Shown piece by piece: positions 437 through 57,487 of a DNA stretch of 64,000 bases. The notes under the pieces were generated by a model. That model was not told where the DNA came from and ran no database searches. It saw only the letters and a list, made by a program, of their open reading frames with translations. The stretch spans positions 1,364,001 through 1,428,000 of the forward strand of contig NZ_CP031933.2 of NCBI RefSeq assembly GCF_003606365.2, given 5' to 3'. The first letter of the stretch is position 1, and each line of letters begins with the position of its first letter. The translations under genes and the position numbers were made by a program. This stretch comes from Companilactobacillus zhachilii (GTDB lineage: Bacteria > Bacillota > Bacilli > Lactobacillales > Lactobacillaceae).

Positions 437-810
437 GCGAATTCCTCAATTCGATTAATTTTTTCATTAAATAAAAAGGGCTAGGTATTTCTTCTGGGAT
501 AAATCCAGAAAAATATCTAGCCTTTTGCTTATGTTCAATTTCGAATAAGATAGCACTTTTTTATCAAATTAGTTAGTTACATCGTATAAAGAATAACGAA
601 TATATTAGTCTCTGGGTGCAAGAAATGTTGGCAGCAGTGAAGGTGGCGTTATGGCTTTAGCCATTACACCACGGGACGAGTTTTGAAATTCGCGTACTTT
701 GCGAAGTTCAAAATCGAGATTGGAGACCGCACTCTGGCTCCAATCGGTCCCCACAGCACCAACATTTCTTGCACCCAGAGACGGTAGATAACCAAAGTTA
801 AGAAAGAACC
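437..810 (-). mobile_element. Compound MITE-like element, type A (copy 1)
   Basis: Seen: on the minus strand the element runs from a GGTTCTTTCTTAACTTTGG end (about 810) through the structured core at 608-782, an AT-rich spacer and a terminator-like hairpin (473-526) to a degenerate far end near 437. Near-identical architecture occurs at 6752-7123 and 19198-19566, where both ends are clearer inverted repeats. It has no coding capacity. Inference: a non-autonomous element moved by a transposase encoded elsewhere. Confidence 0.6.
608..782 (+). repeat. Dispersed multi-helix structured repeat, copy 1
   Basis: The outer arm is a perfect 24-bp inverted repeat (GTCTCTGGGTGC at the left, GCACCCAGAGAC at the right). 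Inside are an ATGGC-TTTA-GCCAT hairpin, a TTCGC/GCGAA hairpin and a GATTGGAG/CTCCAATC helix. It is intergenic, between a hypothetical gene and prmA. This is one of twelve copies; the shared conserved core reads GGTGGCGTT, then ACACCACGGGACGAG. Confidence 0.9.
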
Positions 811-964
811 TCTTTTTTTTATTGGCTTTTTCTAGTAATCTAATTAATAACTATAAGTTGTTGTCTTCAGTCGCAAACAGGGAAACTTGTGACTTGAGAC
901 TAATATAATGGTGGAAAGACAAAAGCCACGTTTTAAATCAGATACAACTGGAGGAACTACATAA

Positions 965-1882
965 ATGCTTTGGAAAAAAATAACGGTCGCCATTCCTAAT
1001 GATTTTGATCCTGAAATTATTTCGGATGTCTTTATGCGTGTTGGCGCTAATGGGACAGAAATGGTTGACGATGAAAATAATGAGGTTAAAACAAAAATTA
1101 ACTCTTATTTTGATGAGAACAGTTATGATGATAAAATTGTAAATAACTTACAAGCTGAAATCGATAAATTACCTGAATTTGGCTTTGATACTACTGGAGT
1201 TAAGATTTCTATCAGTGAACTAGATGATAGTAGCTGGGAAAATGAATGGAAACAGTATTATCATCCGGTAAAAATCAGTCGCTATTTGACGGTTGTACCT
1301 AATTGGGTCGATTACCAACCAAAGTACGCTGATGAACATACTATTGTTATGGATCCTGGTAAGTCATTTGGTACCGGAACCCATCCAACTACTTATTCAT
1401 GTATGCAAGCATTAGAGCTAATTCTAGGCGATGCTGACTCACTTTATGATGTCGGAACTGGTTCAGGCATTTTATCGATTCAAGCTCGTTTGTTGGGTGT
1501 GAAGGATATCAAGGCTTACGATCTTGACCCTGAAGCTGTCCGCGCTGCCAAGGAAAATATTCAACTGAATCCTGGCTGTGAAGATATTGAAGTATTTGAA
1601 AATTCTTTACTTGATGGTGTTGATGGCAAAGTTGATGTGATTGTCGCTAATATGTTAGCCGATGTCATTCAACAATTTATTCCTGACATCGATAATCATT
1701 TGAATGCTAATGGTTTTGTAGTATTATCGGGTATTATTAATGAAAAAGAGCAATTGATAACTGACCAAATGGCTGAACAAGGCTTTATCGTCTTGGAAGC
1801 TTTCCATTTAAAGGGATGGTCAACATTAATTTGTAGAAGAAAAGAAGAGTTCGAGGCGGAAGATGGAGCAATACTTCGTTAA
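965..1882 (+). CDS. prmA: Ribosomal protein L11 methyltransferase PrmA
   Basis: SAM-dependent methyltransferase expected to methylate ribosomal protein L11 in the cytosol. The 305-residue protein has the family's usual length: an N-terminal substrate-recognition domain (about 1-110), then a Rossmann methyltransferase domain with the SAM-binding VGTGSGILSIQA motif near residue 165 and the VANMLADV motif that follows in PrmA. GGAGG lies 9 bases before the ATG. The 3' end overlaps rsmE by 20 bases, so the two rRNA/ribosome methyltransferases are probably co-translated. Identification is by motif and by this characteristic neighbour pair. Confidence 0.95.
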   Translation: MLWKKITVAIPNDFDPEIISDVFMRVGANGTEMVDDENNEVKTKINSYFDENSYDDKIVNNLQAEIDKLPEFGFDTTGVKISISELDDSSWENEWKQYYHPVKISRYLTVVPNWVDYQPKYADEHTIVMDPGKSFGTGTHPTTYSCMQALELILGDADSLYDVGTGSGILSIQARLLGVKDIKAYDLDPEAVRAAKENIQLNPGCEDIEVFENSLLDGVDGKVDVIVANMLADVIQQFIPDIDNHLNANGFVVLSGIINEKEQLITDQMAEQGFIVLEAFHLKGWSTLICRRKEEFEAEDGAILR

Positions 1883-2612
1883 AGAAATTATTAATAGTGA
1901 TAAATTTACAATCGATGAAGCAGAGACTTTTAAGCATATTGCTAAAGTAATGCGTCATAAGACTGGTGATATTGTTTATTTGGTGGATCCAAGTGAGAAA
2001 CTATATGCAGCTACAATTGATGAAATTGATAGTGAGAATAACAATATTTTGACTTCGATTGAGTTGGTAAATCGCCCTAGTACAGAAATGCCGGTTGATG
2101 TGACGGTGGCCTGTTCCTTATCTAAAAAGGATAAGATTGAGTGGATTACCCAGAAGTCGACTGAATTAGGAGCTAAGACGATTATTTTCTTCGATTCTAA
2201 GTATTCGATAATGAAGTGGAAGACTAATGTCGTTGAAAAGAAACTAGCTCGTTTACAAGAAATCGCCAAAAATGCGGCTCAGCAGTCTAAACGCCGGATT
2301 ATTCCTGAAGTTATTTATGTTAACAAGTTGGCTGATTTATTGAAATATCAAGCAGAGGCCAATTTAGTTGCTTATGAAGAATCGGCCAAGCAGGGTGAAA
2401 TCAGTCGTCTCGGTCAAACTTTAAATCAGTCACCAAAATCGGTATTATGTGCTTTTGGACCGGAAGGTGGATTTGCTCCAGACGAGATCGACTTTTTGAA
2501 TCAAAATGATTTTGTATCAGTGGGCTTAGGTCCTCGAATCATGCGAGCTGAAACTGCTCCCATGTATTTCTTATCAGTGCTATCATATAAGTACGAACTA
2601 ACAGTAAAATGA
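1863..2612 (+). CDS. rsmE: 16S rRNA (uracil1498-N3)-methyltransferase RsmE
   Basis: Methylates U1498 of 16S rRNA; a SPOUT-class methyltransferase. The 249-residue protein starts with a PUA-like RNA-binding segment (about 1-70) and ends with the knotted SAM-binding region: GPEGGFAPDEI near residue 200 and LGPRIMRAETAP near residue 222 are RsmE signatures. The start lies inside the end of prmA, with purine-rich sequence upstream acting as the binding site. The gene is intact and forms an operon with prmA. Confidence 0.95.
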   Translation: MEQYFVKEIINSDKFTIDEAETFKHIAKVMRHKTGDIVYLVDPSEKLYAATIDEIDSENNNILTSIELVNRPSTEMPVDVTVACSLSKKDKIEWITQKSTELGAKTIIFFDSKYSIMKWKTNVVEKKLARLQEIAKNAAQQSKRRIIPEVIYVNKLADLLKYQAEANLVAYEESAKQGEISRLGQTLNQSPKSVLCAFGPEGGFAPDEIDFLNQNDFVSVGLGPRIMRAETAPMYFLSVLSYKYELTVK

Positions 2613-2633
2613 GGAACAAATCGTGAAAAATAT

Positions 2634-2960
2634 TTGGAAAAAGTTGAAAAATCAAAAACAACTTATATTGCATTAATCTCAATCGTATTGGTATTTATTA
2701 TGCCAATCTTGTTTAATCTCTTTCATTTAGGTAGAACGAACCGCATCATTTGGTTATTCTTTATTATCAATATTTTGTTTGCCAGTTTTATTGGTTGGTT
2801 TTCGAAGAAATATAACTTATCGTTTTATAATTTAGTTATTTTTCCAGTTATCTTCGTAATCAGTGTGTTCGTTAAATATGGTCGCTACGGCTATTTTTTA
2901 GCCGGAATTTACTTGGTTTTAAGTATTTTAATTTATTTCTTATTTGATAAAGAAAATTAA
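2634..2960 (+). CDS. Small membrane protein, possibly frameshifted at its start
   Basis: About 108 residues with three hydrophobic helices (roughly residues 12-30, 38-58 and 62-105); family not recognised. The only start in this frame is TTG at 2634, poorly spaced (about 18 bases) from the GAGG at 2611-2614. A GTG at 2623 is better placed behind that site but opens another frame, giving VKNIWKKLKNQK before a stop at 2676. Adding one A to the five-A run near 2656-2660 would join the two frames into one smooth protein. Start or integrity is therefore uncertain. It follows rsmE by 21 bases and precedes a terminator. Confidence 0.55.
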   Translation: MEKVEKSKTTYIALISIVLVFIMPILFNLFHLGRTNRIIWLFFIINILFASFIGWFSKKYNLSFYNLVIFPVIFVISVFVKYGRYGYFLAGIYLVLSILIYFLFDKEN

Positions 2961-3000
2961 TTGATATTTAGCATTAAAGCAATCATAATAATATGTAAAC

Positions 3001-3032
3001 TTAAAAGCACTCGCTGAGTGCTTTTTATTGTA
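3001..3032 (+). terminator. Rho-independent terminator before rel
   Basis: AAAAGCACTC and GAGTGCTTTT form a 10-bp stem with a short GCT loop, followed by T-rich sequence. It ends the prmA-rsmE transcription unit. Confidence 0.75.
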
Positions 3033-3049
3033 ACGGGGTGAATATTTCC

Positions 3050-5281
3050 ATGAAAAAAATTAAAGATTATACACCAGAAGAAGTTTTAGATATTTGTCGT
3101 AGCTATATGAACGAGGAGCACGTCGAATTTGTCAATAAGTCGTATCAGTTTGCGGCTTACGTTCACAAGGAGCAAAAGCGTGCTACTGGCGAGCCATATA
3201 TTATTCACCCAACTCAAGTAGCAGAAATTTTAGCTTCATTACATATGGACCCTTATACTGTGGCAGCAGGTTATTTACATGATGTCGTTGAAGATACCAA
3301 CGTGACCCTTGGTGATGTTAAAGAACTTTTTGGTGAACAAGTTGGCACGATTGTCGATGGCGTTACCAAAATCAGTAAATATAAATATCACTCTCATCAA
3401 GAACTTTTGGCCGAAAATCACCGGAAGATGTTATTGGCAACCGCCAAGGACTTACGTGTCATCATGGTGAAATTGGCAGACCGATTGCATAATATGAGAA
3501 CTTTAAAGGCTTTGCGTCCGGATAAACAACGTCGTATCGCCAATGAAACTTTGGAAATTTATGCACCTTTAGCTGATCGTTTAGGTATTAGTAAGATCAA
3601 ATGGGAATTGGAAGACTTATCTTTGCATTATATCAATCCCCAACAGTATTACCGGATTGTCCACTTGATGAATAGTAAACGTGATCAACGTGAAGCTTAT
3701 ATTGCTGAAGCCATTGATTATATTAAGAAAAATGTTGACGCCCTGGGTATTAAATATGATATTTATGGTCGTCCTAAGCATATTTATTCAATCTATAAGA
3801 AAATGCGTGATAAGCATAAGCAATTTTCTGAATTATATGATTTGCTAGCTATTCGTATCGTGGTTGATTCAGTTAAGGATTGTTACGCGGTTTTGGGTTC
3901 GATTCACTCTAAGTGGAAGCCAATTCCAGGTCGCTTCAAAGACTATATTGCTGTACCTAAGGCAAATGGGTATCAATCGCTACATACAACAATCATTGGC
4001 CCTGGTGGTCAACCACTCGAAGTTCAAATTAGAACATTTGAAATGCATCAAGTTGCTGAATATGGTGTTGCTGCTCACTGGGCTTATAAGGAAGGTAATT
4101 TTGAAGGTGCTAACATCGACGATAATGAACAAAAAATCGATGTTTTCCGTGAAATCTTGGAACTTCAAGAAAATTCTGATAATGCCGCTGATTTTATGAA
4201 GTCAGTGAAGGGTGAAATTTTCAATGACCGTGTTTATGTATTTACGCCTGAAGGTGAAGTTATCGAGCTACCTAAGGGCGCTGTAACGCTTGATTTCGCT
4301 TATCAAGTACATACGGAAGTTGGTAATCATTCGATTGGTGCTAAAATCAATGGCAGAATGGTTCCATTAAACTATCAATTGAAGAATGGCGACATTGTGG
4401 AAATGTTGACTAACTCTAACTCAGAGCCAAGTCGTGACTGGGTCAATGTTGTTTATACTTCACGAGCACGTAATAAAATCAAACGTTACTTTAGAACTAA
4501 AGATCGTGAAGAAAATATTGTCCTCGGTCGTGAGTCAATTGAAAATGAATTGAAGAATCGTTCTTTGTCAGGTAAAAAATATCTTGATAAGAAACATTTG
4601 GAAATTGCTATGAAAATTTTCAACTATACTGAGCCAGATGAATTGTTCAATGCAGTTGGTTATGGTGAACTTTCGCCAATTAACGTCGTTCATAAGTTAG
4701 TAAGTGAAGATCCAGACCGCAAAAAAGAAGCTGAGAAAAAAGAGCTTGAAGAACAAGTTATTACTAATACTGAAGAAAAGGTTACACAGCCACAATCTGA
4801 GAGTCCTAAACTTAAAAAGGAACGTAATAACGCTAATACTAGTATTTCCGTGCAAGGAATCGATAATTTGCTAATTCGTTTAGCTAAATGTTGTAATCCG
4901 ATTCCTGGGGATGAAATTGTTGGTTATATTACTAAGGGCCGCGGGTTGACGATTCATCGTGCCGATTGTCCTAATGTCCAAAGTGAAGAAGCAAAGCGTC
5001 GATTCATTGACGTTAGTTGGGATAATGTCACAAAAGAGAAGCGTTATACCGCCGAACTTGATGTCTATGCCTTTAATCGTAATGGCCTGATCAACGAAGT
5101 ACTACAAGTAATCAATTCGAATACTAATACGCTAAATAATGTAATTGGTCGCCTTGATAAAGAAAAGATGGCCATCATTCATGTAAGTATTGGTGTTAAT
5201 AATAAGGAACATTTGGATAACATTATTTCGAAGTTGAAGAATATACCAAATGTCTATGAAATCAAGAGGACGGTAGCTTAA
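3050..5281 (+). CDS. relA: Bifunctional (p)ppGpp synthetase/hydrolase, Rel family
   Basis: Makes and degrades the stringent-response alarmone (p)ppGpp. Domains in order: HD hydrolase (about 30-190, with the metal-site motif YLHDVVEDT intact), synthetase (about 230-350, with [13 protein letters not shown]), TGS (about 390-450, [11 protein letters not shown]), zinc-finger-like/helical region with [10 protein letters not shown] near 615, and a C-terminal ACT domain. Intact HD residues imply a bifunctional long RSH enzyme. I chose ATG 3050 over GTG 3038 because the GGGG-containing site is better spaced. The stop codon overlaps dtd's ATG by one base, so rel-dtd is an operon. Confidence 0.95.
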
Positions 5282-5718
5282 TGAAAGTTGTAGTACAACG
5301 AGTATCTCAAGCTAAAGTGACTGTTGACGACAAAATCCTTGGTCAAATTGATCAAGGATTTTGTTTGTTAGTTGCTTTTGCAAATGAAGATACAGATGAA
5401 ACACTCGAATATATGGCACGAAAAATTGCAAATATGCGTGTCTTTTCGGATACGGATGATAAAATGAATTTAGCAATAAATGATGTTGATGGAAAGATCT
5501 TGTCGATTTCCCAGTTTACACTCTATGCGGATACTAAGCATGGTAACCGACCAAGTTTTACTGGTGCAGGTGATTTTGCGACATCAAGCAAGAAATATGA
5601 TCAATTCAATGACTTATTGAGAGGGTATGGATTGACCGTTGAAACTGGTGAATTTGGGGCTGATATGCAAGTATCATTGACCAATGATGGACCAGTAACT
5701 ATTTTAATGGAGAGATAA
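5281..5718 (+). CDS. dtd: D-aminoacyl-tRNA deacylase
   Basis: Removes D-amino acids wrongly attached to tRNA (chirality proofreading). The 145-residue protein is full length, starts [15 protein letters not shown] and carries the SQFTLYAD motif near residue 78 and the cross-subunit Gly-Pro motif region NDGPVTI at the end, all typical of Dtd. It overlaps rel's stop by one base (TAATG), the usual Firmicutes arrangement. Confidence 0.95.
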
Positions 5719-5720
5719 AT

Positions 5721-6751: not shown

Positions 6752-6775
6752 GGTTCTTTAATTTGGTTAGTTGTC

Positions 6776-6949
6776 GTCTCTGTGTGCAAGAAATGTTGGC
6801 GCTGTGGGGACCGATTGGAGCCAAAGAGCGGTCTCAAGTCTCGATTTTGAACTTCGCAAAGTACGCGAATTTCAAAACTTGTCCCGTGGTGTAATAGTAA
6901 AGTCCTAACGCCACCGTCACTGCTGCCAACATTTCTTGCACCCAGAGAC
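6776..6949 (-). repeat. Dispersed multi-helix structured repeat, copy 2
   Basis: Same core as copy 1 but inverted. The outer arm GTGCAAGAAATGTTGGC pairs with GCCAACATTTCTTGCAC. This is the most degenerate copy: the TTTA-loop hairpin arms (AGGAC, CTATT when read in the core's sense) no longer pair and the last helix is partly mismatched, so it may be decaying. Confidence 0.85.
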
Positions 6950-7030
6950 TAATATATTCGTTGTTTTTTATACGGTATAACCAATTGATTCGATAAAGGG
7001 ATTACGCATTATTTGAAATTTAATATAAGC

Positions 7031-7087
7031 AAAAAGGTTAGATATTTTTTCTGGATTTATACCAAGAGAAAAATATCTAACCTTTTT
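7031..7087. terminator. Terminator-like hairpin inside the type A element
   Basis: AAAAAGGTTAGATATTTTT pairs with AAAAATATCTAACCTTTTT across a short loop. Because the stem is flanked by A and T runs on both sides it could terminate transcription in either direction. Related hairpins occur at 473-526, 13683-13735 and 19477-19530. Confidence 0.7.
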
Positions 7088-7132
7088 TATGTTCGGTTCC
7101 GTAACCAGACTTGAGAAAGAACCAACGAATAG

Positions 7133-7984: not shown

Positions 7985-8044
7985 AGGCTTTCCTCCATTA
8001 GTTGGTCTAACTATAACAAAAAAGACAACTCATTTGTTAAAAAT

Positions 8045-8170: not shown

Positions 8171-8187
8171 TTGTCATTTATATAATT

Positions 8188-9492
8188 TTATTTAAAATAT
8201 TCTTTCAAACCATTAGCTACATCTTTAGCAACTTCAGCTTTGTAAGTATCGGAATTGATGTACTTATAATCTGTGTTCGAGTTGATATAACCTAGCTCGA
8301 TTAAGACTGATGGTTGACTGTTGTAATGGAGAACGTAGAGATCTTTTTGAGCTGTCCCACGATTACCTATGGAAAGATTCTTGAGTTGACTATTTAGGTC
8401 ATCAGCAAGGGAACCATCTTTGTCTTTATTATAATAGTAAGTTGTGACACCAGAACCAGCATTTTCTTGAGCACTGGAATCAAAATGCAAACTGATAAAT
8501 GCATCTGCTTGAATCTTGCTTGATAGACGAGCTCTTTCACCGAGTGATTTACTGTCATCACCTGAACGGGTTAGAACGACACGTGCACCAGTTTTTTCGA
8601 GTTCTTTCTTGATAGCTTTAGCATAAGCGAGAGTGAAGTTCTTTTCGTAAGTATTCTTTTTAGATTCAGCACCGGAATCATTGCCACCGTGTCCAGGATC
8701 AATGACGATCGTAGCCTCGGAAATATTTGTGGCTGCTGACTTAACAGCGCTCTTAGTACCAGAAATGGTAACGACCCAACTGGCAACATAACCGACAGAG
8801 CCGTCTGAGTCACGAACTTTATACCACTTGCCGTCTTTACCTAAGTAATCAAATTGTTTACCGACCTTAGCTGTTTTAACGACACGGCCGTTTTGGTCAG
8901 GCTCGATACGTAATTTGGTATTTGGTTGAGTAACGGTAACTTTCTTGATGTCATTATCAGAGGAAGTATTTGAAGAGACAGTTGAACCAGAAGTTTCCTG
9001 AGTACCTTGGATGAAACTGGATTTGACCCAGCCAGCAGTACCATTGTACAAAATTTGTGTCCAATCTTGTTCTTGATACATGATCGTAACTTTTTGTGAT
9101 TGTTCGATAGTACCTAAAACATTGCTTCCAGCATCAGCACTCTTGAAGACAGTTGTATTAGGGACCTTAACGATTCCAACTTTATTGGTTGCAGAACTAA
9201 CATCAGTGTTGTCAATCAACCAGCTGGCAACCCAGCCAATTTTATCTCCGGATAGTCTGACTTGATACCATTTATTTTTCTCATCCAAGATGGCAAGTTT
9301 GTCACCTTTTTTTACTTGGCCCATATTTGCGTAAGACAATCCCGGACCAATACGAACATTTACGGAGTCAGAGCGAACCACAACTGCATTAGCACTCGCT
9401 AACGCCACTGTGGACCAACTCGATAGGGCGAGTAATAATAAAATAGCAACAAGAATCCGGTTTTTAATAAAAAGTTGTATTATCTTTTTCAT
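8188..9492 (-). CDS. Secreted N-acetylmuramoyl-L-alanine amidase with three SH3b domains
   Basis: Peptidoglycan hydrolase that cuts the amide bond between MurNAc and L-Ala. A signal/anchor helix (about residues 9-33) is followed by three bacterial SH3 wall-binding domains (about 33-95, 105-165 and 185-243) and an Amidase_3 catalytic domain (260-434). Zinc ligands appear intact: His268 in IDPGHGG, Glu283 in TYEKN and His336 in SLHFDS, with the catalytic Glu399 in VLIELGYI. The gene is monocistronic. A role in cell separation or autolysis is likely; it resembles CwlC/LytC-type amidases. Confidence 0.92.
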   Translation of the reverse strand: MKKIIQLFIKNRILVAILLLLALSSWSTVALASANAVVVRSDSVNVRIGPGLSYANMGQVKKGDKLAILDEKNKWYQVRLSGDKIGWVASWLIDNTDVSSATNKVGIVKVPNTTVFKSADAGSNVLGTIEQSQKVTIMYQEQDWTQILYNGTAGWVKSSFIQGTQETSGSTVSSNTSSDNDIKKVTVTQPNTKLRIEPDQNGRVVKTAKVGKQFDYLGKDGKWYKVRDSDGSVGYVASWVVTISGTKSAVKSAATNISEATIVIDPGHGGNDSGAESKKNTYEKNFTLAYAKAIKKELEKTGARVVLTRSGDDSKSLGERARLSSKIQADAFISLHFDSSAQENAGSGVTTYYYNKDKDGSLADDLNSQLKNLSIGNRGTAQKDLYVLHYNSQPSVLIELGYINSNTDYKYINSDTYKAEVAKDVANGLKEYFK

Positions 9493-9904
9493 TTAACTGA
9501 TTCCTTTATTGTCAAAATACTGACAAAGTTTAATTATTTTTTTTATTACAAACACAATTTTTAAAATCTTTTCTGTTGTGATTAAAGTGTAATTTTATAG
9601 ATTGATAAATCTTAATGCGAAATCGTTGTTTTGGTTTAAAAATACGAAAGTTAATCTTACTTTAGCAACAATTAGGACGGTTTTGCAATTTTCAGAATTT
9701 AAATACACATTCTATATGTATATCTTACTTAATATAGTAACAAGTTAAAAGAATAGATTGTAAATTTCCTAATAAAATTTGACTTTTTAGAACTTTTGTT
9801 CGTGTAAAAATGGTGAATTTAGAATATTTTGTTGTTTTAATGATAGAAAAGGGATACAAATGGTTGAAATCAGGTGTTATAGCTTTTGGGAATAATTAAA
9901 TATT

Positions 9905-10085
9905 CCGCCTCCGGGAACAAGAATTTTAGGTCGCTGTGGGGACCGATTGGAGCCATAGAGCGGTCTCCAATTTCGATTTTGAACTTCGCAAAGAACGCGA
10001 ATTTCAAAAGTCGTCCCGTGGTGTAAGGGATAAATCCCTAACGCCACCTCCACGGCGACCTAAATTTCTTGTTCCCTCCGGCTAG
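9905..10085 (-). repeat. Dispersed multi-helix structured repeat, copy 3
   Basis: Subtype B, inverted: starts CCGCCTCCGGGAACAAG and ends CTTGTTCCCTCCGGCTAG. Read in the core's sense its hairpin is AGGGA-TTTA-TCCCT and its last helix is ATTGGAG/CTCCAAT. It occupies part of the 1-kb gap (9493-10504) between the amidase gene and hisS. The rest of that gap is AT-rich with no gene that I can support, apart from the hisS leader. Confidence 0.9.
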
Positions 10086-10287
10086 TTTATGTTTTGCTGG
10101 ATTGTTGAAGTTTGATTTTTGTATGTAATTTATGAGTATAAATTCTAAATCCTTAATGGTTAAGAAACCGAAAATGATTCAAACTGATAATTAAAAAAAT
10201 GGAATTATATGTGTTCAAGTATTTCTTTACTGTGTTACATTAAAGCACAAGAAAATCAATTGGAACCGGTAACATTACGTAACCGTC

Positions 10288-10316
10288 TTGACAACGTATT
10301 CTATTTTAGATAGTTT
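10288..10316 (+). promoter_or_regulatory. Candidate promoter for hisS-aspS
   Basis: A perfect TTGACA at 10288-10293 is followed 17 bases later by TAGTTT, a weak -10 box. Initiation near 10323 would start just before the T-box leader, which supports the call. Confidence 0.45.
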
Positions 10317-10324
10317 ATAAGTAT

Positions 10325-10500
10325 ATTCGTAATCAAATAAATCGTTTTACAGAGAATCTGGTGGCTGAGAGCAGATAACGATTGATTGTGTGACGTTTTA
10401 ATCGTTTGGCAGGCGTTAACTGCAGCAAAAAAACTAGGTGGTACCGTGCAGAATGCACCCTTGTCTTATTTGGACAAGGGTGTTTTTTATTTAAGGAGGA
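10325..10500 (+). promoter_or_regulatory. T-box riboswitch upstream of hisS-aspS
   Basis: A leader that senses uncharged tRNA and controls read-through. The T-box core AGGTGGTACCGTGCA is at 10436-10450, and a strong terminator follows (CACCCTTGTC at 10456-10465 pairing with GGACAAGGGTG at 10472-10482, then T6). The upstream part folds into a stem using AATCGTT/AACGATT and ATCTG/CAGAT. I could not place the specifier with certainty; a GAC (Asp) triplet lies at 10392-10394 and no obvious His codon stands in the same loop, so tRNA-Asp is a possible ligand. Confidence 0.88.
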
Positions 10501-10504
10501 TTTT

Positions 10505-11776: not shown

Positions 11777-11778
11777 AC

Positions 11779-13585: not shown

Positions 13586-13792
13586 GGTTCTTTCTTGAGC
13601 TTAGTTATTTGTTATTTTTAACACGATACAACTAACTAATTCGATAAAAAAAGCGCTGAATTATTTGAAATTTAACATAATCAAAGGCTAGATATTTTTC
13701 TGGATTTATATCAAGAAAAATATCTAGCTTTTTTTTATATTCACTTATACGACCAAAGTTGAAAAAAATATACGACCAAAGTTGAAAAAAAG
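13586..13792 (+). mobile_element. Type A element remnant without the structured core
   Basis: Left end GGTTCTTTCTTGAGC, the same AT-rich spacer (including TTCGATAAA) and terminator-like hairpin (13683-13735) as in the compound elements, but the roughly 175-bp structured core is absent. The right end TACGACCAAAGTTGAAAAAAA is present twice in tandem. A half copy of the second hairpin family follows (13800-13875). Confidence 0.6.
13683..13735 (+). terminator. Terminator-like hairpin after aspS
   Basis: AAAGGCTAGATATTTTTC pairs with GAAAAATATCTAGCTTTTT. It probably terminates hisS-aspS while being part of the dispersed element. Confidence 0.65.
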
Positions 13793-16880: not shown

Positions 16881-16946
16881 TTACATTATTTACGATGATA
16901 TTAATCACCATATATTTAAAGCTCATAATCATTCTGTAAATGGAAT

Positions 16947-17128
16947 TAGCTGGAGGGAGCAACGAAATTAGGTCGCTGTGAAGGTGGCGTTAGCACTTTA
17001 GTGCTTACACCACGGGACGAGCTTTGAAACTCGCGGTTTTTGCGAGGTTCAAAGTCGAGATTCGAGACCGTTCTTTGGCTCGAATTGGTCCCCACAGCGA
17101 CCTAATTTCGTTGCTCCTGGAGGCGGCA
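16947..17128 (+). repeat. Dispersed multi-helix structured repeat, copy 4
   Basis: Subtype B, forward. The outer arm is a perfect 25-bp inverted repeat (GGAGCAACGAAATTAGG with CCTAATTTCGTTGCTCC plus the adjacent TCGCTGTG/CACAGCGA). Internal hairpin AGCAC-TTTA-GTGCT, CTTTGAA/TTCAAAG helix and ATTCGAG/CTCGAAT helix. It is the cleanest example of the fold in this window. Confidence 0.92.
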
Positions 17129-19188: not shown

Positions 19189-19220
19189 TTCAGAGAGTGG
19201 GACAAAGTTGGTTAGTTGCC

Positions 19221-19395
19221 GTCTCTGGGCGCAAGAAATGTTGGCGCTGTGGGGACCGGTTCGAGCCGAAAGGCGGTCTCGAACCTCGATTTTGAACTTC
19301 GCAAAGTACGCGAATTTCAAAACTCGTCCCGTGGTGTAATGGCTAAAGCCATAACACCACCCTCACTGCTGTCAACATTTCTTGCACCCAGAGAC
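19221..19395 (-). repeat. Dispersed multi-helix structured repeat, copy 5
   Basis: Subtype A, inverted. The outer arm GCAAGAAATGTTG pairs with CAACATTTCTTGC. In the core's sense the hairpin is ATGGC-TTTA-GCCAT and the last helix is GTTCGAG/CTCGAAC, a compensatory variant of the ATTCGAG/CTCGAAT seen in copy 4. Confidence 0.9.
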
Positions 19396-19476
19396 TAATA
19401 TATTCGTTGTTTTTTTATATGGTATAACTAATTGATTCGATAAAGGGATTATGTGTTATTTGAAATTGAATATGAG

Positions 19477-19530
19477 TAAAAGGCTAGATGCTTTTCCAGA
19501 TATAAATTCAGAAAAAGCATCTAGCCTTTT
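19477..19530 (+). terminator. Terminator-like hairpin inside the type A element
   Basis: AAAAGGCTAGATGCTTTT pairs with AAAAGCATCTAGCCTTTT. Compared with 7031-7087 the stem carries matched changes (GATGC/GCATC against GATAT/ATATC), so pairing is kept. It lies downstream of the YitT gene. Confidence 0.7.
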
Positions 19531-19566
19531 TATATTCAATTCTATAACCAAAATTGAGAAAGAACC

Positions 19567-22364: not shown

Positions 22365-22542
22365 CTAGCCGGAAAGAACAAGAATTTAGATCGCTGTGCG
22401 GCTGGCGTTGGCACTTGAGTGCCTACATCACGGAACGAATTTTGAAACTCGCGATTTGTGCGAGGTTCAAAATCGAGCCGAAAGACACAAGGCTGTCGGC
22501 GGTCCCCATAGCGACCTAAATTTCTTGTTCTTGGAGGCGGCA
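22365..22542 (+). repeat. Dispersed multi-helix structured repeat, copy 6
   Basis: Subtype B, forward: CTAGCCGGAAAGAACAAG to TTCTTGGAGGCGGCA. The hairpin is GGCAC-TTGA-GTGCC (the loop differs by one base from TTTA). The last helix is GCCGA/TCGGC instead of ATTCGAG/CTCGAAT. It fills part of the 22004-22652 gap; the remainder is AT-rich with no supported gene. Confidence 0.9.
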
Positions 22543-25357: not shown

Positions 25358-25546
25358 GGCTTGTACTGGGAAAGGTGCTAGGTAGTAAAGCCAAAGCATA
25401 TTTTAGGAATATGTGGTGATAGTTGACATTTTTGACTCTGAATTTGAAAGTAATTTAAATCAAAAGATTCGAATATGTTCTATACCCTATTATCTTAGTT
25501 ATCAACGACATGGTGAGACACTGTTTCTTCAAAAATAAAGAGCACA

Positions 25547-25728
25547 CTAGCCGGAAAAAGCAAGAAATTTAGGTCGCTGTGAAGGTGATGTTAGGGATTT
25601 ATCCCTTACATCACGGGACGACTTTTGAAACTCGCGGTTCTTGCGAGGTTCAAAAGCGAGATTCGAGACCGCCCTTTGGCTCGAATCGGTCCCATAGCTA
25701 TCTAAATTTCTTGCTCTTGGAGGCGGAA
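25547..25728 (+). repeat. Dispersed multi-helix structured repeat, copy 7
   Basis: Subtype B, forward: CTAGCCGGAAAAAGCAAG to CTTGCTCTTGGAGGCGGAA. Hairpin AGGGA-TTTA-TCCCT, last helix ATTCGAG/CTCGAAT. It lies between the broken nucleoid-protein gene and cdd. The preceding 190 bases (25358-25546) hold nothing I can identify. Confidence 0.9.
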
Positions 25729-25838
25729 TATTTAACCACCCCACACGTATTTCGTGACTTTTATTTCAAATCCTTTTTTTAAACATTCATCTGTATTATA
25801 ATTATTAACTGAGATACACAAAAAAGGAGACTGAACTA

Positions 25839-31333: not shown

Positions 31334-31512
31334 CTAGTCGGAAGAACTGAGGGATGCTGATTGGCAGTGAAAGTGGCGTTAGCGATTTATCGCTTACACC
31401 ACCGGGCGTGTTTGGAGACTCGCTGATTTTGCGAGGCTTCAAACCGAGACTTGAGACCTTGGCTCAAGTCGTTCCGCACTGCCAATCAGTATCCCTCAGT
31501 TCTGGAGACGGA
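31334..31512 (+). repeat. Dispersed multi-helix structured repeat, copy 8
   Basis: Subtype C, forward: the outer arm GAACTGAGGGATGCTGATTG pairs with CAATCAGTATCCCTCAGTTC, a sequence unrelated to the arms of subtypes A and B. Hairpin AGCGA-TTTA-TCGCT, third helix GTTTGGAG/CTTCAAAC, last helix ACTTGAG/CTCAAGT. It fills the gap between glyS and the dnaG promoter. Confidence 0.9.
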
Positions 31513-34738: not shown

Positions 34739-34920
34739 GCCACCTCTAGGAACAAGAAATTTAGGTCGCTATGGGGACCGACTTGAGCCAGAGTGAGGTC
34801 TCAAGTCTCGATTTTGAACTTCGCCAAGTACGCGAATTTCAAAAGTCGTCCCGTGGTGTAAGAGCTAAAGCTCTAACGCCACCTTCACAGCGACCTAAAT
34901 TTCTTGTTCCTTCCGGTTAG
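34738..34920 (-). repeat. Dispersed multi-helix structured repeat, copy 9
   Basis: Subtype B, inverted, starting at the end of the rpoD terminator: TGCCACCTCTAGGAACAAG to CTTGTTCCTTCCGGTTAG. In the core's sense: hairpin AGAGC-TTTA-GCTCT, last helix ACTTGAG/CTCAAGT. Together with copy 10 it fills most of the 700-base gap between rpoD and cfa; the rest is AT-rich. Confidence 0.9.
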
Positions 34921-35105: not shown

Positions 35106-35285
35106 CTAGTCGGAAGTATCGAGAAATAGCTAATGGCAGTGAAAGTGGCGTTAGAGCTTTAGCTCTTACACCACCGGGCGTGTTTGGAGACTCGCTGATT
35201 TTGCGAGGCTTCAAACCGAGATTCGAGACCTTGGCTCGAATCGGTCCGCACTGTCATTAGCTATTTCTCGATGCTGGAGACGGCA
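35106..35285 (+). repeat. Dispersed multi-helix structured repeat, copy 10
   Basis: Subtype C, forward: the outer arm ATCGAGAAATAGCTAATG pairs with CATTAGCTATTTCTCGAT. The hairpin AGAGC-TTTA-GCTCT equals that of copy 9, but the outer arm and third helix match copy 8. Confidence 0.9.
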
Positions 35286-49951: not shown

Positions 49952-49967
49952 AAACCGTTAAATATAA

Positions 49968-50003
49968 GAGAGCTCTAATTTTTAGGGCTCTTTTGTTTTT
50001 GAA
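49968..50003 (+). terminator. Terminator after the SLAP-MucBP-CAP gene
   Basis: AGAGCTCTAA pairs with TTAGGGCTCT across a short T-rich loop, followed by TTTTGTTTTT. Confidence 0.8.
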
Positions 50004-50029
50004 AAATTATTTTTTTGAGGGGAAAAAGC

Positions 50030-51442: not shown

Positions 51443-51454
51443 CTAGGGGGAAAT

Positions 51455-52812: not shown

Positions 52813-52875
52813 TTAGTACCTTCAAAATATGTTTTGGTATAATAGAAATATCTTAAATTACTGAGGAGAAAAATT

Positions 52876-53061
52876 ATGCCATTAGTACATATTGATTTAA
52901 TTGCTGGCCGTTCTGAAGAACAACTAAGAGGTATGGTCAAAGACGTTACTGCAGCCATTGTTAAAAACACTGGTGCACCTGCAGAACACGTTCATGTTGT
53001 TTTAAATGAAATGGAAAAAGAACATTACGCTGTTGGCGGTGTTTTAAAGAGTGACGAATAG
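52876..53061 (+). CDS. 4-oxalocrotonate tautomerase family protein
   Basis: A 61-residue tautomerase-superfamily protein. The catalytic N-terminal proline (Pro1 after Met removal) is present in MPLVHIDLIAGRSEEQ; the strand-helix pattern with VHVVLNEMEKEHYAVGG fits 4-OT/YwhB/DmpI-type hexamers. Physiological substrate in lactobacilli is unknown. GAGGAGA precedes the ATG and a terminator follows. Confidence 0.9.
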   Translation: MPLVHIDLIAGRSEEQLRGMVKDVTAAIVKNTGAPAEHVHVVLNEMEKEHYAVGGVLKSDE

Positions 53062-53069
53062 TTAATTTT

Positions 53070-53098
53070 GGCACACCTTAGGGTGTGCTGTTTTTGTT
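53070..53098 (+). terminator. Terminator after the tautomerase gene
   Basis: GGCACACC and GGGTGTGC pair around a short TTA loop, followed by TGTTTTTG. It overlaps the leader of the next gene. Confidence 0.75.
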
Positions 53099-53110
53099 AG
53101 GAGAGATTTT

Positions 53111-54313
53111 ATGTTAGATTCAGTTTTACCCGACAAACATCTGACTGAGGAGCAGCAAAATATTTTTAATGAAATATTAGATTTTTGCCACAAAAATTTA
53201 GAAACAAATACGAAAGGTTTATTTCAGTTAAATGGTGATGCTGGTACTGGAAAAAGTGTTATTTTAACGCAATTATTTTTACAGCTAGAAAAATCAGCAA
53301 AGGGTAATGGTACAGATAATTATTTTCTCGTTAATCATCCCGAACTATTAAAAGTTTATCAAGAAAATGCCGGTGGTTATAAGGATTTACGCAAGAATCG
53401 TTTTTTAAGACCTACCACTTTTATTAATCGAATGAATAAAGAACATAAGAGTTCCGATGTTGTTGTCATTGATGAAGCGCATTTACTACTCAGTGAGGCT
53501 GATCGTTACAATAATTTCGAGCAAAATAATCAATTGGAAGAAATTATTAAATTAAGTAAAGTCGTGATAATTGTTTATGATGAACGACAGGTACTCAAAC
53601 TCAAGAGTTTTTGGTCACAAAAAGTAATTGATAACCTAGTTAAGAGATTTCAATTGAACTATAAGCTGGCAACTTTACACGTACAGATGCGTATGCAAGC
53701 TCCCAGAAGTGTATTAAAGTGGATTGATACATTGACTAATAATTTGCAATTAACACCACTGACACATGAAAATACCCGTTTCTTAGGTGGTGCTTATCAA
53801 GGTTATGATTTCAGGGTTTATCCAGACGCTGAAAAAATGTATCAACAATTAAGACTAGACAATGAAACTTATCAAAAATCACGTATCGTGGCCACGGCGG
53901 ATTATCCATCAACTTTGGATGGTAAGAAACATTTTGTGAACGAAGGGGAGTTTCATTTGCCTTGGGATCAATACAATTATTCCAATGTCACCTGGGCACA
54001 GAAAGAATCAACGATTGATGAAATTGGGTCGATTTATACTGTTCAAGGTTTTGATTTGAATTATGTAGCAGTTATTATTGGACCATCTGTTGAATATGCC
54101 GGAGATGGGAAGATAAAAATTGATATTAATAAATATGAGGATCAGGAGGCATTCAAGAAGCGCCATCAAAGTGATTTACGAGATGTGAATGATGCAAAAA
54201 AAGAAATCATTCTTAATTCGATGAATGTGTTATTAAAACGTGGCGTTAAGGGTGTTTATGTTTATTTCCATGACAGCCAAATTTACGATTATTTAATGGG
54301 AGATTCTAAATAA
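53111..54313 (+). CDS. DUF2075 family P-loop ATPase
   Basis: A 400-residue cytosolic NTPase. Walker A NGDAGTGKS (41-49), Walker B VVVIDEAHLLL (about 118-128), a superfamily-1 helicase-like arrangement further on (VQMRMQAP, then IGSIYTVQGFDLNYVAVIIG, resembling helicase motifs IV-VI). This matches DUF2075, related to the Schlafen group 3 C-terminal ATPase. Role unknown; family members occur in defence or nucleic-acid contexts, but nothing nearby supports a defence system. GGAGAG precedes the ATG. Confidence 0.85.
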   Translation: MLDSVLPDKHLTEEQQNIFNEILDFCHKNLETNTKGLFQLNGDAGTGKSVILTQLFLQLEKSAKGNGTDNYFLVNHPELLKVYQENAGGYKDLRKNRFLRPTTFINRMNKEHKSSDVVVIDEAHLLLSEADRYNNFEQNNQLEEIIKLSKVVIIVYDERQVLKLKSFWSQKVIDNLVKRFQLNYKLATLHVQMRMQAPRSVLKWIDTLTNNLQLTPLTHENTRFLGGAYQGYDFRVYPDAEKMYQQLRLDNETYQKSRIVATADYPSTLDGKKHFVNEGEFHLPWDQYNYSNVTWAQKESTIDEIGSIYTVQGFDLNYVAVIIGPSVEYAGDGKIKIDINKYEDQEAFKKRHQSDLRDVNDAKKEIILNSMNVLLKRGVKGVYVYFHDSQIYDYLMGDSK

Positions 54314-54314
54314 A

Positions 54315-54366
54315 TAAAATACCACCTACTAATAAACAGACGACTTGTTAGTAGGTGGTATTTTAT
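54315..54366. terminator. Long perfect hairpin after the DUF2075 gene
   Basis: AAATACCACCTACTAA pairs with TTAGTAGGTGGTATTT, flanked by A and T runs. It is a strong, potentially bidirectional terminator. Confidence 0.85.
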
Positions 54367-54465
54367 TAATCAACTAATTGCAGTTATAGATTTTTTATCT
54401 GAAATATATATTTAAAATTAGTAGTATTAATTACACTGTATCCACCAAAAAATCAACTAATAAAT

Positions 54466-54644
54466 CAGTCGAAAGGAGTAAGAAAATTAGGTCGCAGTGA
54501 AGGTGGCGTTGGCGATTCAGCGCCTACACCACGGGACGAGCTTTGAACCTCGCGTACTTTGCAAGGTTCAAAGTCGAGGTTCGAGACCGTTTTTTGGCTC
54601 GAACCGGTCCCCAGCGGCCTAATTTTTTACTCCTGGAGACGGCA
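54466..54644 (+). repeat. Dispersed multi-helix structured repeat, copy 11
   Basis: Subtype B, forward: AGTCGAAAGGAGTAAG to TTTTACTCCTGGAGACGGCA. Hairpin GGCG-ATTCAG-CGCC (one closing pair lost), third helix CTTTGAA/TTCAAAG, last helix GTTCGAG/CTCGAAC. It lies between convergent genes. Confidence 0.88.
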
Positions 54645-54659
54645 AGTTTAAACCACAAA

Positions 54660-54690
54660 AAAACGATAACCTATTGGCTATCGTTATCAG
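54660..54690 (-). terminator. Terminator of the small HTH gene (minus strand)
   Basis: AACGATAACC and GGCTATCGTT form the stem; on the minus strand it is followed by a T7 run. Confidence 0.75.
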
Positions 54691-54709
54691 GGTAAACTAC
54701 AAATACCGC

Positions 54710-54895
54710 TTATTGATGTAGCTTGATATATTCTAAGATTGTCTTTTCTTCATCTGCTGTTGGTTCGTAATCGCCCGATTTCAAATTGTGAACACGTTCA
54801 ACTGAGATGTGACTTTCGAAAGCAAATTGTGTATCTGTCATATCTTTATCTTTTTCGTACTGAATGATCATTTCAGCAATACTTGGTTTATCCAT
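54710..54895 (-). CDS. Small HTH-like protein, 61 aa
   Basis: A tiny protein with an HTH-like centre: MTDTQFAFESHISVERVHNLKSGDYEPTADEE. It resembles the small lactobacillar family annotated as LBP_cg2779-like in databases (from memory). A GGAGG site lies 6 bases before the ATG. It sits downstream of lepB on the same strand, 34 bases away, so the two may share a transcript. Its function is unknown; it could be a small DNA-binding regulator. Confidence 0.7.
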   Translation of the reverse strand: MDKPSIAEMIIQYEKDKDMTDTQFAFESHISVERVHNLKSGDYEPTADEEKTILEYIKLHQ

Positions 54896-54929
54896 GAAAA
54901 TACCTCCAATAAGTTATCTATAACTTGAT

Positions 54930-55595
54930 TTAAAAGATTGTCCATTTATTCAATGGCCAGTAACGCCACTTGACTTCACCGATGACACTCTTCTTATCAA
55001 TGAAACCAATGATTCGACTATCTTTGGAAACAGTTCTGTGATCTCCCATTACAAAATAGGTACCAGCAGGGACCTTATTAGTCTGTTCAACTTTCTTTAG
55101 ATAAGAACTGCTGTAACGTTGTTGCCATTCAGGGGAATTCTTAGCTAAAGTACTCAAAGTGAAATTATACGTATAGCTGTAAGGCTTGCCCGCATAGAGA
55201 CTAGTGTCAGGTTCCTTTACTTTATTACCTGCTTTGAGGAAGTCTTCCTTATATAGTTTACCATTAACATAGATTTTGTTGTTCTTAGAAACAACTGTAT
55301 CACCAGGTAAACCGATAACTCTCTTAATATAAAATGATCCTGGTTCATCGGGAGCCTTTAAAACGATAACATCACCACGACTAATACTTGAATGTCTTGT
55401 CGCAATTACTTTGTCACCGTTTTCAAAAGTTGGCTGCATAGAAGGTCCAGAAACTTTATCGTTTGAGAGAATAAACTTAAACCCAAGGAAGAAAACTGCA
55501 TAAATTGCAATGGTCAACGCAATGGTTTGTAACCAAAATTGCCAACCACTTTCTTCTTCCTTTTGAGGCCGTCGTCTTCTATTATTTTCTGCCAT
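54930..55595 (-). CDS. lepB: Signal peptidase I
   Basis: Membrane-bound serine/lysine protease that removes signal peptides from exported proteins, including the many surface proteins in this window. 221 residues: a charged N-terminus, one transmembrane helix (about 20-43), nucleophile Ser52 in SGPSMQPT, general-base Lys91 in YIKRVIGLPGD, and the GDHRTVSKDSR box near 187. The ATG follows GAGGTG. Confidence 0.95.
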   Translation of the reverse strand: MAENNRRRRPQKEEESGWQFWLQTIALTIAIYAVFFLGFKFILSNDKVSGPSMQPTFENGDKVIATRHSSISRGDVIVLKAPDEPGSFYIKRVIGLPGDTVVSKNNKIYVNGKLYKEDFLKAGNKVKEPDTSLYAGKPYSYTYNFTLSTLAKNSPEWQQRYSSSYLKKVEQTNKVPAGTYFVMGDHRTVSKDSRIIGFIDKKSVIGEVKWRYWPLNKWTIF

Positions 55596-55809
55596 ATTTC
55601 ACCTCGTACATGTACTAACTAAGATATTACACTTTTTCGCTATTATTGGAAATAATTGTGACATTTTCATCATTAAAATTTAATTGAATGTTAATAAAGT
55701 TCGATTCCTAGAGCTTGTAGGGATTAATAACTTTAAGTCTATTCCAAATTCTAGTAATATAATTCTCGAATATATTAAGAATTATCGGTAGTTATTCTGG
55801 GAGGCAAGT

Positions 55810-56571
55810 ATGAATTATATTGATGGATTAAGAGCAGATACCGCAGTATTACCAAATGGGATGGTTTTCAATGCCCGAATCAAGTTTATGGAGCGAATTT
55901 GTCAAGCGTTGGCGAACAACCAGTTGCCTAAATATCATTTTCCACAATTTCAATTAACGGAAAAAGAGATTACTTCATATATGGAAAGCAATGTGAACTT
56001 AGATGAGGTTGAATTTCAAGCTATGTCAGCTCATTTAGAGAAATTCGATCATGATTTAGGAGAATTCAGAACATATCTTCAAACACGCTTTGGTTACTGG
56101 GCCACAATTACGCAAGATTTTACAGCAGCCATTAAAGCTAACTTTCCCAACCAAAGTTTCTTGGAGTTGATGGCAGGTAATGGCTATCTATCTAAAGGAC
56201 TTCGAGATATCGGCGTTGAGACATACTGCACTGATGATTTGAGTTGGGCTAAATACAATCAAACAGGCAATTTAGCATTGACTGAAATTGAATCCCTAGA
56301 TGCTCTTTCAGCACTGGAGAAGTATGGTAACCAAGTTGATAACGTTATCGTCGCTTGGAGTCCGGATCGCGAAGATATTGATTATAAAGTTCTGCAGAAA
56401 ATCCGCCAGTTAAATGTGAATTTCTTACTGATTGGTGAAAAGAATGGTGCCACAGATAGCAAAGAATTTTGGGAAGACGCTAAATTAGTTGAAGACCCCA
56501 GAATAGACAAAATCAATCAATCATATTCACATTATGATTTAGTTCAAGATCAGCTTTATCTAGTCAAATAA
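55810..56571 (+). CDS. SAM-dependent methyltransferase-like protein
   Basis: 253 residues. A helical N-terminal region (about 1-110) precedes a Rossmann-like domain with FLELMAGNGYLSKGLRDIGV near 120, resembling SAM motif I, then CTDDLSW and VDNVIVAWSPDREDIDY, where the motif IV position is VAWSP. Target unknown. The ATG has GGGAGG 7 bases upstream. It diverges from lepB and converges with the next gene. Confidence 0.65.
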   Translation: MNYIDGLRADTAVLPNGMVFNARIKFMERICQALANNQLPKYHFPQFQLTEKEITSYMESNVNLDEVEFQAMSAHLEKFDHDLGEFRTYLQTRFGYWATITQDFTAAIKANFPNQSFLELMAGNGYLSKGLRDIGVETYCTDDLSWAKYNQTGNLALTEIESLDALSALEKYGNQVDNVIVAWSPDREDIDYKVLQKIRQLNVNFLLIGEKNGATDSKEFWEDAKLVEDPRIDKINQSYSHYDLVQDQLYLVK

Positions 56572-56576
56572 TTAGG

Positions 56577-57071
56577 TCATTTTTGAAAGGTAAATAAATT
56601 CGTACGGTCCCAAACAAATTCATTATCACAAATATAACCACGGAGCCAAAGTTTATGGTTAACATTGCGCAAGTAAAAGCCTTTAGGACAGTCAACATCT
56701 TCAGAAATAATTGGTGAAGCAATTGTAACTGAAGAATCTGGGGCTTTTTGCCGATGCATGGCGCTGTCGTTACTGACTGGCTGGTCTTTCCAAAAAAGAC
56801 GACAATAAATGGCTGCTTCTAGTGAACAAAGCCTGAAACCTTGTTCCTGGGCAGCCGTAAATATGTGGGGCAAAGTAGCTGGAATTGTTAAATGCAAGGC
56901 CGCAACTGGTAAAACTTGCAGAGTTATTAATTGTTTTTGAGGAGAAAGAGTTAGTCTCGAATCAGTCAGTAGCTTTTTTGCACTAGGATTAAGTACGATA
57001 TGGTTTTGTTTGAGTTGCATTTTTAATTGGTTTAAAGAGAACCCTCCAAGATTGAAAGTTAAAGAGAACAT
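56577..57071 (-). CDS. Hypothetical protein, 164 aa
   Basis: Not recognised. Begins MFSLTFNLGGFSLNQLKMQLKQ and contains three Cys in the middle and C-terminal region (LCSLEAAIYC, EDVDCPKGFYLRNV). No signal peptide or membrane helix. An AAAAAGGAG site lies about 7 bases before the ATG. Its 3' end is 5 bases from the convergent methyltransferase-like gene. Upstream, 57072-57309 is AT-rich with no supported feature. Confidence 0.65.
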   Translation of the reverse strand: MFSLTFNLGGFSLNQLKMQLKQNHIVLNPSAKKLLTDSRLTLSPQKQLITLQVLPVAALHLTIPATLPHIFTAAQEQGFRLCSLEAAIYCRLFWKDQPVSNDSAMHRQKAPDSSVTIASPIISEDVDCPKGFYLRNVNHKLWLRGYICDNEFVWDRTNLFTFQK

Positions 57072-57309
57072 TATTTTTACTCCTTTTTGTCTTAGACTAA
57101 GTAAACATTTGAGTTAAATGATGGTAAGTCTATTTAATGAGTGGGCTAGTTGATTTTTTTACAGTTTTTGTATGTTTAATTAAAAACTAAAGGTCGAAAG
57201 TATCAAAATAGATTTTAAGTTATGAAACTTTAATTTTCTAGAGTATAAGGATAATGATTGTTAATGCATTTCAAGTTCAATATCATTTTGTATAAGAATA
57301 ATGAGTGAA

Positions 57310-57487
57310 TTAGCCGGAAAGAGTAAGAAATTTTGGTCGCTGTGCAGGTGGTGTTGGCGCTTTAGCGCCTACACCACGGGACGAGTTTTGAAACTCGCGA
57401 TTTGTGCGAGGTTCAAAATCGAGCCGAAAGACCTTGGCTTTCGGCGGTCCCCATAGCGACCAAAATTTCTTACTCTTGCAGGCGGCA
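57310..57487 (+). repeat. Dispersed multi-helix structured repeat, copy 12
   Basis: Subtype B, forward: TTAGCCGGAAAGAGTAAG to CTTACTCTTGCAGGCGGCA. Hairpin GGCGC-TTTA-GCGCC, last helix GCCGAAAG/CTTTCGGC, fully paired. Short open frames crossing it are artefacts of its GC-rich helices. Confidence 0.9.

Follow-up and report, generated by a model that had tools for sequence, protein, structure and literature searches.

The 64,000-nt stretch of the Companilactobacillus zhachilii chromosome analyzed here (contig NZ_CP031933.2, positions 1,364,001-1,428,000 of 2,714,973 bases; hereinafter, the window) carries twelve copies of a branched, folded repeat of about 180 nt. We propose, with a probability of roughly 0.7, that these copies belong to a new Lactobacillaceae family of intergenic repeats that are mobile, non-autonomous, and defined by their structure. 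Both between genera and between orthologous loci, the outward-reading strand retains its fold, and the copies are dispersed and differ between close species. All twelve had been noticed in a preliminary description made from the sequence without database searches, and the limits set by a covariance model (R1, made from 40 copies of this genome) lie within a few bases of those given there; R1 matches all twelve cores at 160-208 bits (Table 1). The fold drawn at that stage proved correct, RNAalifold finding 66 pairs among the twelve copies, 36 of them with double changes, and copy 605 folding with z = -11 relative to 200 shuffles. The stems named there are present as well, but the hairpin loop given as TTTA reads TTCA in copy 54465 and TTGA in copy 22365, and copy 6774 departs from the general pattern, its TTTA hairpin being broken and its last helix mixing ACTTGAG with CTCCAAT.

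In the model that we put forward, the unit would be either one core of ~180 nt or two sequence-distinct inverted cores with their 3′ ends outward, separated by a spacer of ~30-400 nt. Each core comprises a long closing arm of free sequence and a conserved branched center with hairpins P3, P5, and P6, and in Companilactobacillus it is bounded by fairly constant feet, YTAG before the core and CGGCA after it.

Being related mobile repeats, the twelve copies alone do not amount to twelve independent tests, for which reason the decisive comparisons were those between genera and between orthologous copies. The cross-genus set consisted of 36 cores from at least six genera, including Companilactobacillus, Lapidilactobacillus (L244), Lactiplantibacillus (L068), and further genera of Lactobacillaceae, aligned with MAFFT without the use of structure. 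On this alignment, RNAalifold predicts 59 pairs, 52 of which show double (compensatory) changes; paired cells reach 93.7%, compared with 71.3% in shuffled alignments, and covariation reaches 0.634, compared with 0.206 in the shuffles and 0.08-0.13 (maximum 0.133) in slid controls, such that none of 500 shuffles matches the real alignment on any measure. Helix P2 covaries here (GC/AU). Helix P4 (GGGAC/GTCCC) is present in the consensus of C. zhachilii and missing from that of the 36 cores, probably owing to alignment gaps; 25 columns unpaired in the latter consensus are at least 80% constant, and columns 92, 93, and 177-181, the P4 strands, are among them. In C. zhachilii itself P4 does covary, one of its pairs being GC in 47, CG in 10, and AU in 3 of the 67 full-length copies found in 400 kb of the genome (20 evenly spaced 20-kb stretches). 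The unpaired columns 41, 52, 106, 128, and 139 are constant at 94-100% over the 36 sequences.

Changes in place were followed in six orthologous cores of C. jidongensis and C. insicii, located in aligned stretches that are 79-88% identical. Among the 322 pairs of these cores, 19 double changes keep the pairing and 5 break it, where 5.3 double changes of any kind would be expected if the two sides changed independently. Single changes keep the pairing in 15 cases and break it or leave it broken in 19, the single departures from Watson-Crick pairing being G-U in 15 cases, A-C in 7, and others in 10. One further orthologous pair (L151/L175) was excluded from this count because it is 47% diverged; with it included, the seven pairs yield 38 kept and 7 broken doubles. 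Such conservation in place implies that, once a copy has been inserted, its fold still matters or undergoes repair. Thus, the earlier claim that the fold is selected, as RNA or as single-stranded DNA (ssDNA), finds support both in covariation beyond every shuffle and slid control and in compensatory changes at orthologs, with template switching an alternative for part of the latter. Because orthologous and paralogous copies abound, selection on structure is separable from mutation in this repeat family of food bacteria.

If double-stranded DNA alone mattered, G-T and A-C mismatches would be expected to be equally common. In the inner helices of the 67 C. zhachilii copies, however, there are 74 G-U and 10 A-C cells; across genera the ratio is 59:9 in the inner core and 36:18 outside it; and the 77 cores taken from C. 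tucceti, C. jidongensis, and C. insicii give 163:75 in total. Given the G-U excess in the inner core, we take the outward-read strand, from YTAG to CGGCA, as the one that probably folds, as RNA or ssDNA; judging from the sequences, it most likely acts as RNA, in transcripts that cross the element, and an ssDNA form might occur during mobility. Several observations pull the other way. In the closing arm of the C. zhachilii copies there is no strand preference (31 G-U and 25 A-C); just three positions account for 44 of the 74 inner G-U cells, and without them the ratio is 30:10; P4 is reversed (9:16), perhaps through misalignment, in C. tucceti, C. jidongensis, and C. insicii; and no kept double change in place falls in P2 or P4. 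The kept doubles are instead confined to P1 (11), P5 (5), P6 (2), and P3 (1), so that correction of hairpin arms by template switching is possible for part of them.

Generalized, such correction leads to another explanation, namely, that the repeats are plain palindromic miniature inverted-repeat transposable elements (MITEs), the arms of which match through template switching or gene conversion between arms or copies, with no selection on the fold. The helices in which kept doubles occur, the strand symmetry of the arm mismatches, the mosaic last helix of copy 6774, and copies of C. nantensis that lost the interior while the arms remain would all be accommodated by this scheme. The inner core would not: its excess of G-U over A-C, which persists without the three positions and recurs across genera, is unlike the outcome of DNA repair, P2 and P4 covary as well, and unpaired columns stay nearly invariant. 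We regard a plain palindromic MITE as a rather improbable description of these repeats.

The dispersal and turnover of the copies form the other part of the argument for a structure-defined mobile family; the preliminary description had not recognized the mobility, the inverted doublets, or the spread over ten genera. The 67 sampled copies, 35 on the plus and 32 on the minus strand, remained after 51 of the 118 rows of the scan were discarded as antisense images or shortened remnants. They correspond to one copy per 6 kb, so that the heavy density first estimated from the window (one per about 5 kb) holds genome-wide, and they scale up to ~455 copies per genome; by length alone, the cores make up about 3% of the chromosome. 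A load of ~455 copies is among the denser folded repeat loads known from bacterial chromosomes. Each of the best 150 genome-wide candidates scores at least 162 bits. With regard to replichore orientation, these best-scoring 150 copies lean 95:55 against the leading-strand direction, and the evenly spaced singles are split 25:22. Remnants of ~64 nt (L045 9019-9082; L127 14896-14960 and 7929-7992), which keep the closing arms but have lost the interior, are probably palindrome deletions.

C. nantensis, the nearest relative compared (96% in DnaG), has an 80-kb stretch syntenic with the window that contains 4 full cores and one remnant, as opposed to the window's 12 cores; homology with the window is interrupted at the positions of the copies. 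The segment around core 25547 is missing in C. nantensis; sites 6774 and 19219 carry a different subtype there, which is best read as the result of independent insertions; and site 605 holds a core in the opposite orientation plus a short remnant. The doublet at 34740 is common to both species, with both cores collapsed to arm remnants in C. nantensis. In C. huachuanensis and C. musae, among the sites listed, the window copy is absent or another remnant is in place. The C. musae site orthologous to window position 6776 (L144) holds a doublet with similar feet and branch plan and a very different sequence, in which R1 finds the left core weakly (46.6 bits) and leaves the right core unmatched, which suggests that R1 captures only part of the family.

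Inverted doublets are probably the ancestral unit. In the C. zhachilii sample, 15 of the 16 neighbor pairs less than 700 nt apart are (-)(+) and one is (+)(+); the window holds one inverted doublet. Further doublets are present in C. tucceti, C. jidongensis, C. insicii, Lactiplantibacillus herbarum (L. herbarum), and in other genera: the 18 listed for the first three of these species have lengths of 354-498 nt and spacers as short as 31 nt, and two spacers in Lapidilactobacillus achengensis measure 368 and 401 nt. In L. herbarum, 12 other doublets examined align with L260 over 461-506 columns only. In C. zhachilii, single cores accompanied by ~150 nt of the DNA upstream also seem to have propagated, given that, among 104 copies (28 of them picked for being best blastn hits), shared sequence of up to ~140-170 nt lies directly upstream in several subtypes, and downstream sharing (23 nt) was detected in only 2. 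The arm sequence differs by subtype.

Other features of the unit and its ends sit less easily with a doublet that moves as a defined element. In L. herbarum, the shared sequence of doublets L270 and L272 extends to the left beyond the doublet, so that what moves is in some cases more than the doublet. By the logic of REPINs, doublet members should be more alike than singles, whereas here likeness among left cores (L-L, 0.759), right cores (R-R, 0.687), and singles (S-S, 0.741) makes the singles as alike as the doublet members. In C. zhachilii, the two cores within a doublet (0.693) are not more alike than cores of different doublets (0.712). An outer inverted repeat is not a general feature, reaching z ≥ 3 in just 5 of 79 copies; outer terminal repeats, seen by eye in some subtypes (GGTTCTTTCTYAAYTTTGGTTAT ends), were therefore rejected as a general boundary. 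Target-site duplications do not exceed shuffles in sets of 13, 18, and 15 doublets, the copies of which may be too old. Searches for a mobilizer in C. zhachilii yielded no match to the Y1 model (PF01797; none either in genome G024, which corresponds to C. nantensis by identical coordinates; 18 of 36 in the genus), the reverse transcriptase model RVT_1 (PF00078; 12 of 36 in the genus), or the IS110 model (PF02371; 7 of 36), and none of these models nor that of TnpB points to a mobilizer, DDE transposase families not having been searched. An autonomous copy with a gene between (-) and (+) cores was considered and rejected: six C. zhachilii stretches of 3-4.5 kb with such cores hold ordinary-looking host genes between them (translations judged by eye), and the 708-nt, hairpin-rich spacer of a C. 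tucceti doublet (L145 890-1597) is free of open reading frames (ORFs) of at least 60 aa and of Rfam matches.

The repeats have the MITE-like traits of being short, having no gene inside, and occurring in many dispersed intergenic copies, but the free arms, fairly constant feet, and lack of a general terminal repeat or of target duplications in excess of shuffles argue against a classical MITE of a DDE transposase, a class of enzymes that the searches did not cover. With no match to Y1, reverse transcriptase, or IS110 and no classical ends, recognition by shape plus feet, by a presumed enzyme acting in trans, appears most likely; the machinery would then read the shape and the feet of the core rather than its terminal sequence. 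A unit that moves with free ends would be of interest for the study of mobility. A bolder version of the proposal, which we consider unlikely, is that the cores are a new RNA-defined mobile element, that is, a folded RNA or ssDNA recognized and copied by its shape, by a route that involves neither Y1 transposases nor reverse transcriptase nor IS110 recombinases, with the copies staying under selection as working RNA.

Guide and bridge RNAs, such as the omega RNA of TnpB and the bridge RNA of IS110, are structured elements of similar size, and the repeats could in principle be such an RNA of a transposon family scattered without its protein. C. zhachilii does encode two TnpB above the cut-off (L282 1272-2441 and L120 around 9100-10450), one of which sits between a (-) and a (+) core. 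However, in the 20-kb stretch of the second there is no core closer than 4 kb, just one being found in all, at 5075-5254; both TnpB elements have the same flanks as each other, and the IS110 model finds nothing in this genome. By definition, the RNA of OMEGA/TnpB systems overlaps the 3′ end of tnpB, and neither TnpB gene of C. zhachilii overlaps a core. We find this explanation very improbable.

With ORFs of at least 90 aa called using a simple script, 77 of 79 copies overlap none of them by over 60 nt, and 73 copies were placed in 221 scored intergenic gaps (tandem, 45 copies in 140 gaps; divergent, 17 in 41; convergent, 11 in 40), which would make the family relevant to gene expression. A host-domesticated insulator, in which the folded outward strand would process or stop read-through at gene ends and each copy would be kept for that role, fits the retention of structure in place at orthologous loci. 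It also fits the terminator-like hairpins which, 8-53 nt off, read toward the core 3′ end in 13 of 78 copies, above controls (1-4 of 78 in random AT-rich stretches and 0-1 of 78 in shuffles); hairpins reading away from the 3′ end accompany 8 of 78 copies, and on the core 5′ side the counts are 1 and 2 of 79. Yet 65 of the 78 copies lack such a terminator, tandem gaps follow no orientation rule (25 same, 20 opposite), all kinds of gaps are used, and the sites differ between species; an insulator seems to us rather improbable.

Even less probable, in our view, is a large family of small-RNA genes, each copy with its own promoter and acting in trans. The conserved unpaired center and free closing arm resemble those of a functional RNA, and the one-strand G-U excess would be expected of one; hundreds of copies at variable sites, and inverted doublets with spacers down to 31 nt, which leave little room for two promoters, would not. 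Nor would the patchy occurrence of the family, given that 191 of 251 Lactobacillaceae genomes have no match in a scan with strict filters and ten candidates scored per genome, and that L. plantarum EGD-AQ4 also has none. In that scan the covariance model matches 60 of the 251 genomes, in 10 of 40 genera (E 1e-8), and, among the 150 rows listed from it, all but one cover the whole model. Within Companilactobacillus, 32 of 36 genomes have a match at E ≤ 1e-6; a sample of 295 genomes from the order gave 11 with matches, including a single weak one (E = 9.6e-9) beyond Lactobacillaceae. At least 125 matches among 150 scored were obtained for C. nantensis, C. huachuanensis, C. hulinensis, Lapidilactobacillus achengensis, Lapidilactobacillus wuchangensis, and Lactiplantibacillus fabifermentans, and, among 96 scored, 53 for L. 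herbarum, 92 for L. xiangfangensis, and 53 for Lapidilactobacillus mulanensis; 24 of the 28 genomes in the same scan as L. herbarum, including L. plantarum EGD-AQ4, have zero matches.

The preliminary description knew of no described element with this core, and Rfam (release 15) indeed gives no match in the whole window at gathering scores, none up to E = 5 in 56900-57600, and none in L145, L147, L170, or L060. On this basis a T-box, a riboswitch, or another known RNA was rejected, and the lack of an Rfam model for the family would matter for genome annotation. A plasmid or phage origin was also dismissed, one core having no match in either collection by distant blastn. No Lactobacillaceae repeat of this kind was found in the open-licence PMC literature; Lac-1 of L. 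johnsonii, 231 nt long (PMC2267715), was considered by its description. Nor is the present core described in the available portions of PMC3116915, PMC3733652, PMC3049150, and PMC10969869.

The closest parallels are with REPINs, which, as far as the available parts of PMC3116915 and PMC3733652 describe them, are REP doublets mobilized by RAYT (Y1) transposases and have in common with the present repeats an inverted doublet with a spacer (here a probable mobile unit), singles alongside, an extragenic location, compensatory changes, and a constant tetranucleotide foot. They differ in that the REP palindrome spans 20-40 bp, against ~180 nt and a multibranched fold in the present core, in that the REP foot is GTAG or CGTC (PMC3733652) rather than YTAG, and in their need for RAYT, for which the Y1 model finds no candidate in C. 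zhachilii or G024. The BOX, RUP, and SPRITE repeats of Streptococcus pneumoniae (available text of PMC3049150) are likewise high-copy, intergenic, parasitic, and extensively folded, BOX being modular and SPRITE enriched near gene 3′ ends; RUP and BOX have been linked to IS elements by terminal repeats, whereas the present repeats have no general terminal repeat, the core being set apart from all three by their descriptions, not by sequence. MITEs and the bcr1 and Efa-1 stem-loop families, as described in the available parts of PMC10969869 and PMC2267715, are similarly short, non-coding, intergenic, and dispersed. Unlike these, the present family shows no target-site duplication above shuffles and no constant terminal inverted repeat, has arms of free sequence, and covaries across genera, IS ends not having been compared. 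The family is REPIN- or BOX-like in its working, yet departs from REPINs in two defining features, the RAYT transposase and the GTAG or CGTC foot on a 20-40 bp palindrome.

The cores also serve as sites for group II introns. Introns of this genus (Rfam RF02001, RF01998, RF00029) occur in L212-L215, and the loci with introns include L212 (616-3018), L213, L284, L286, L289, L291, and L293 (G011); the core-borne introns of L212 and L213 contain reverse transcriptase ORFs of 465 and 463 aa, respectively. Twelve 5′ junctions were read, of which seven lie inside a core and five after terminator hairpins. Six of the seven in-core introns belong to genome G011 and occupy one identical position of R-type cores, although two of these, whose 110-nt 5′ flanks are identical, might not count as independent, and reading of the 3′ junction covered four of the six; the remaining one is in C. 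nantensis, on the opposite strand. A seventh G011 intron is one of the five that follow terminator hairpins, and its 3′ flank resembles a core arm by eye. The placement of introns in cores resembles that after terminator hairpins, the targets of group IIC introns; attC sites, too, are targets of such introns. Their presence suggests that the cores offer DNA hairpins acceptable to group II introns, and that introns took the cores as sites would be of relevance to the biology of these introns.

Table 1. Cores and associated segments of the repeat family in the window
Feature	Positions	Strand	Score or remark
Upstream part of the 605 unit, with simple hairpin 476-526; common to other copies of the TAGTCTCTG type	475..604	+	
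Structured core, TAGTCTCTG type	605..784	+	195.9 bits
Structured core, TAGTCTCTG type, mosaic last helix	6774..6952	-	160.3 bits
Upstream part of the 6774 unit; 71-nt and 57-nt repeats common to copy 19219	6953..7123	-	
Structured core	9905..10085	-	207.3 bits
Structured core	16946..17126	+	208 bits
Structured core, TAGTCTCTG type	19219..19398	-	187 bits
Upstream part of the 19219 unit, with simple hairpin 19479-19529	19399..19566	-	
Structured core	22365..22540	+	161.9 bits
Segment around core 25547-25726, missing at the C. nantensis orthologous site	25378..25749	+	Limits are the ends of flanking alignments
Structured core	25547..25726	+	192.9 bits
Structured core, R-like type (GTGGCGTT..CACCACCGGGCG)	31334..31511	+	171.8 bits
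Left core of the inverted doublet, immediately past the rpoD terminator	34740..34920	-	207.7 bits
Doublet spacer, without ORF of at least 80 aa	34921..35105	.	
Right core of the inverted doublet	35106..35283	+	173.1 bits
Structured core	54465..54642	+	177.1 bits
Structured core	57310..57485	+	201.7 bits

A second repeat, a simple hairpin of ~50 nt (AAGGGCTAG...CTAGCCTTTT), occurs in the window at 476-526, 13683-13733, and 19479-19529; near 13683 there is no core within 3 kb, and the hairpin forms the left part of some single units.

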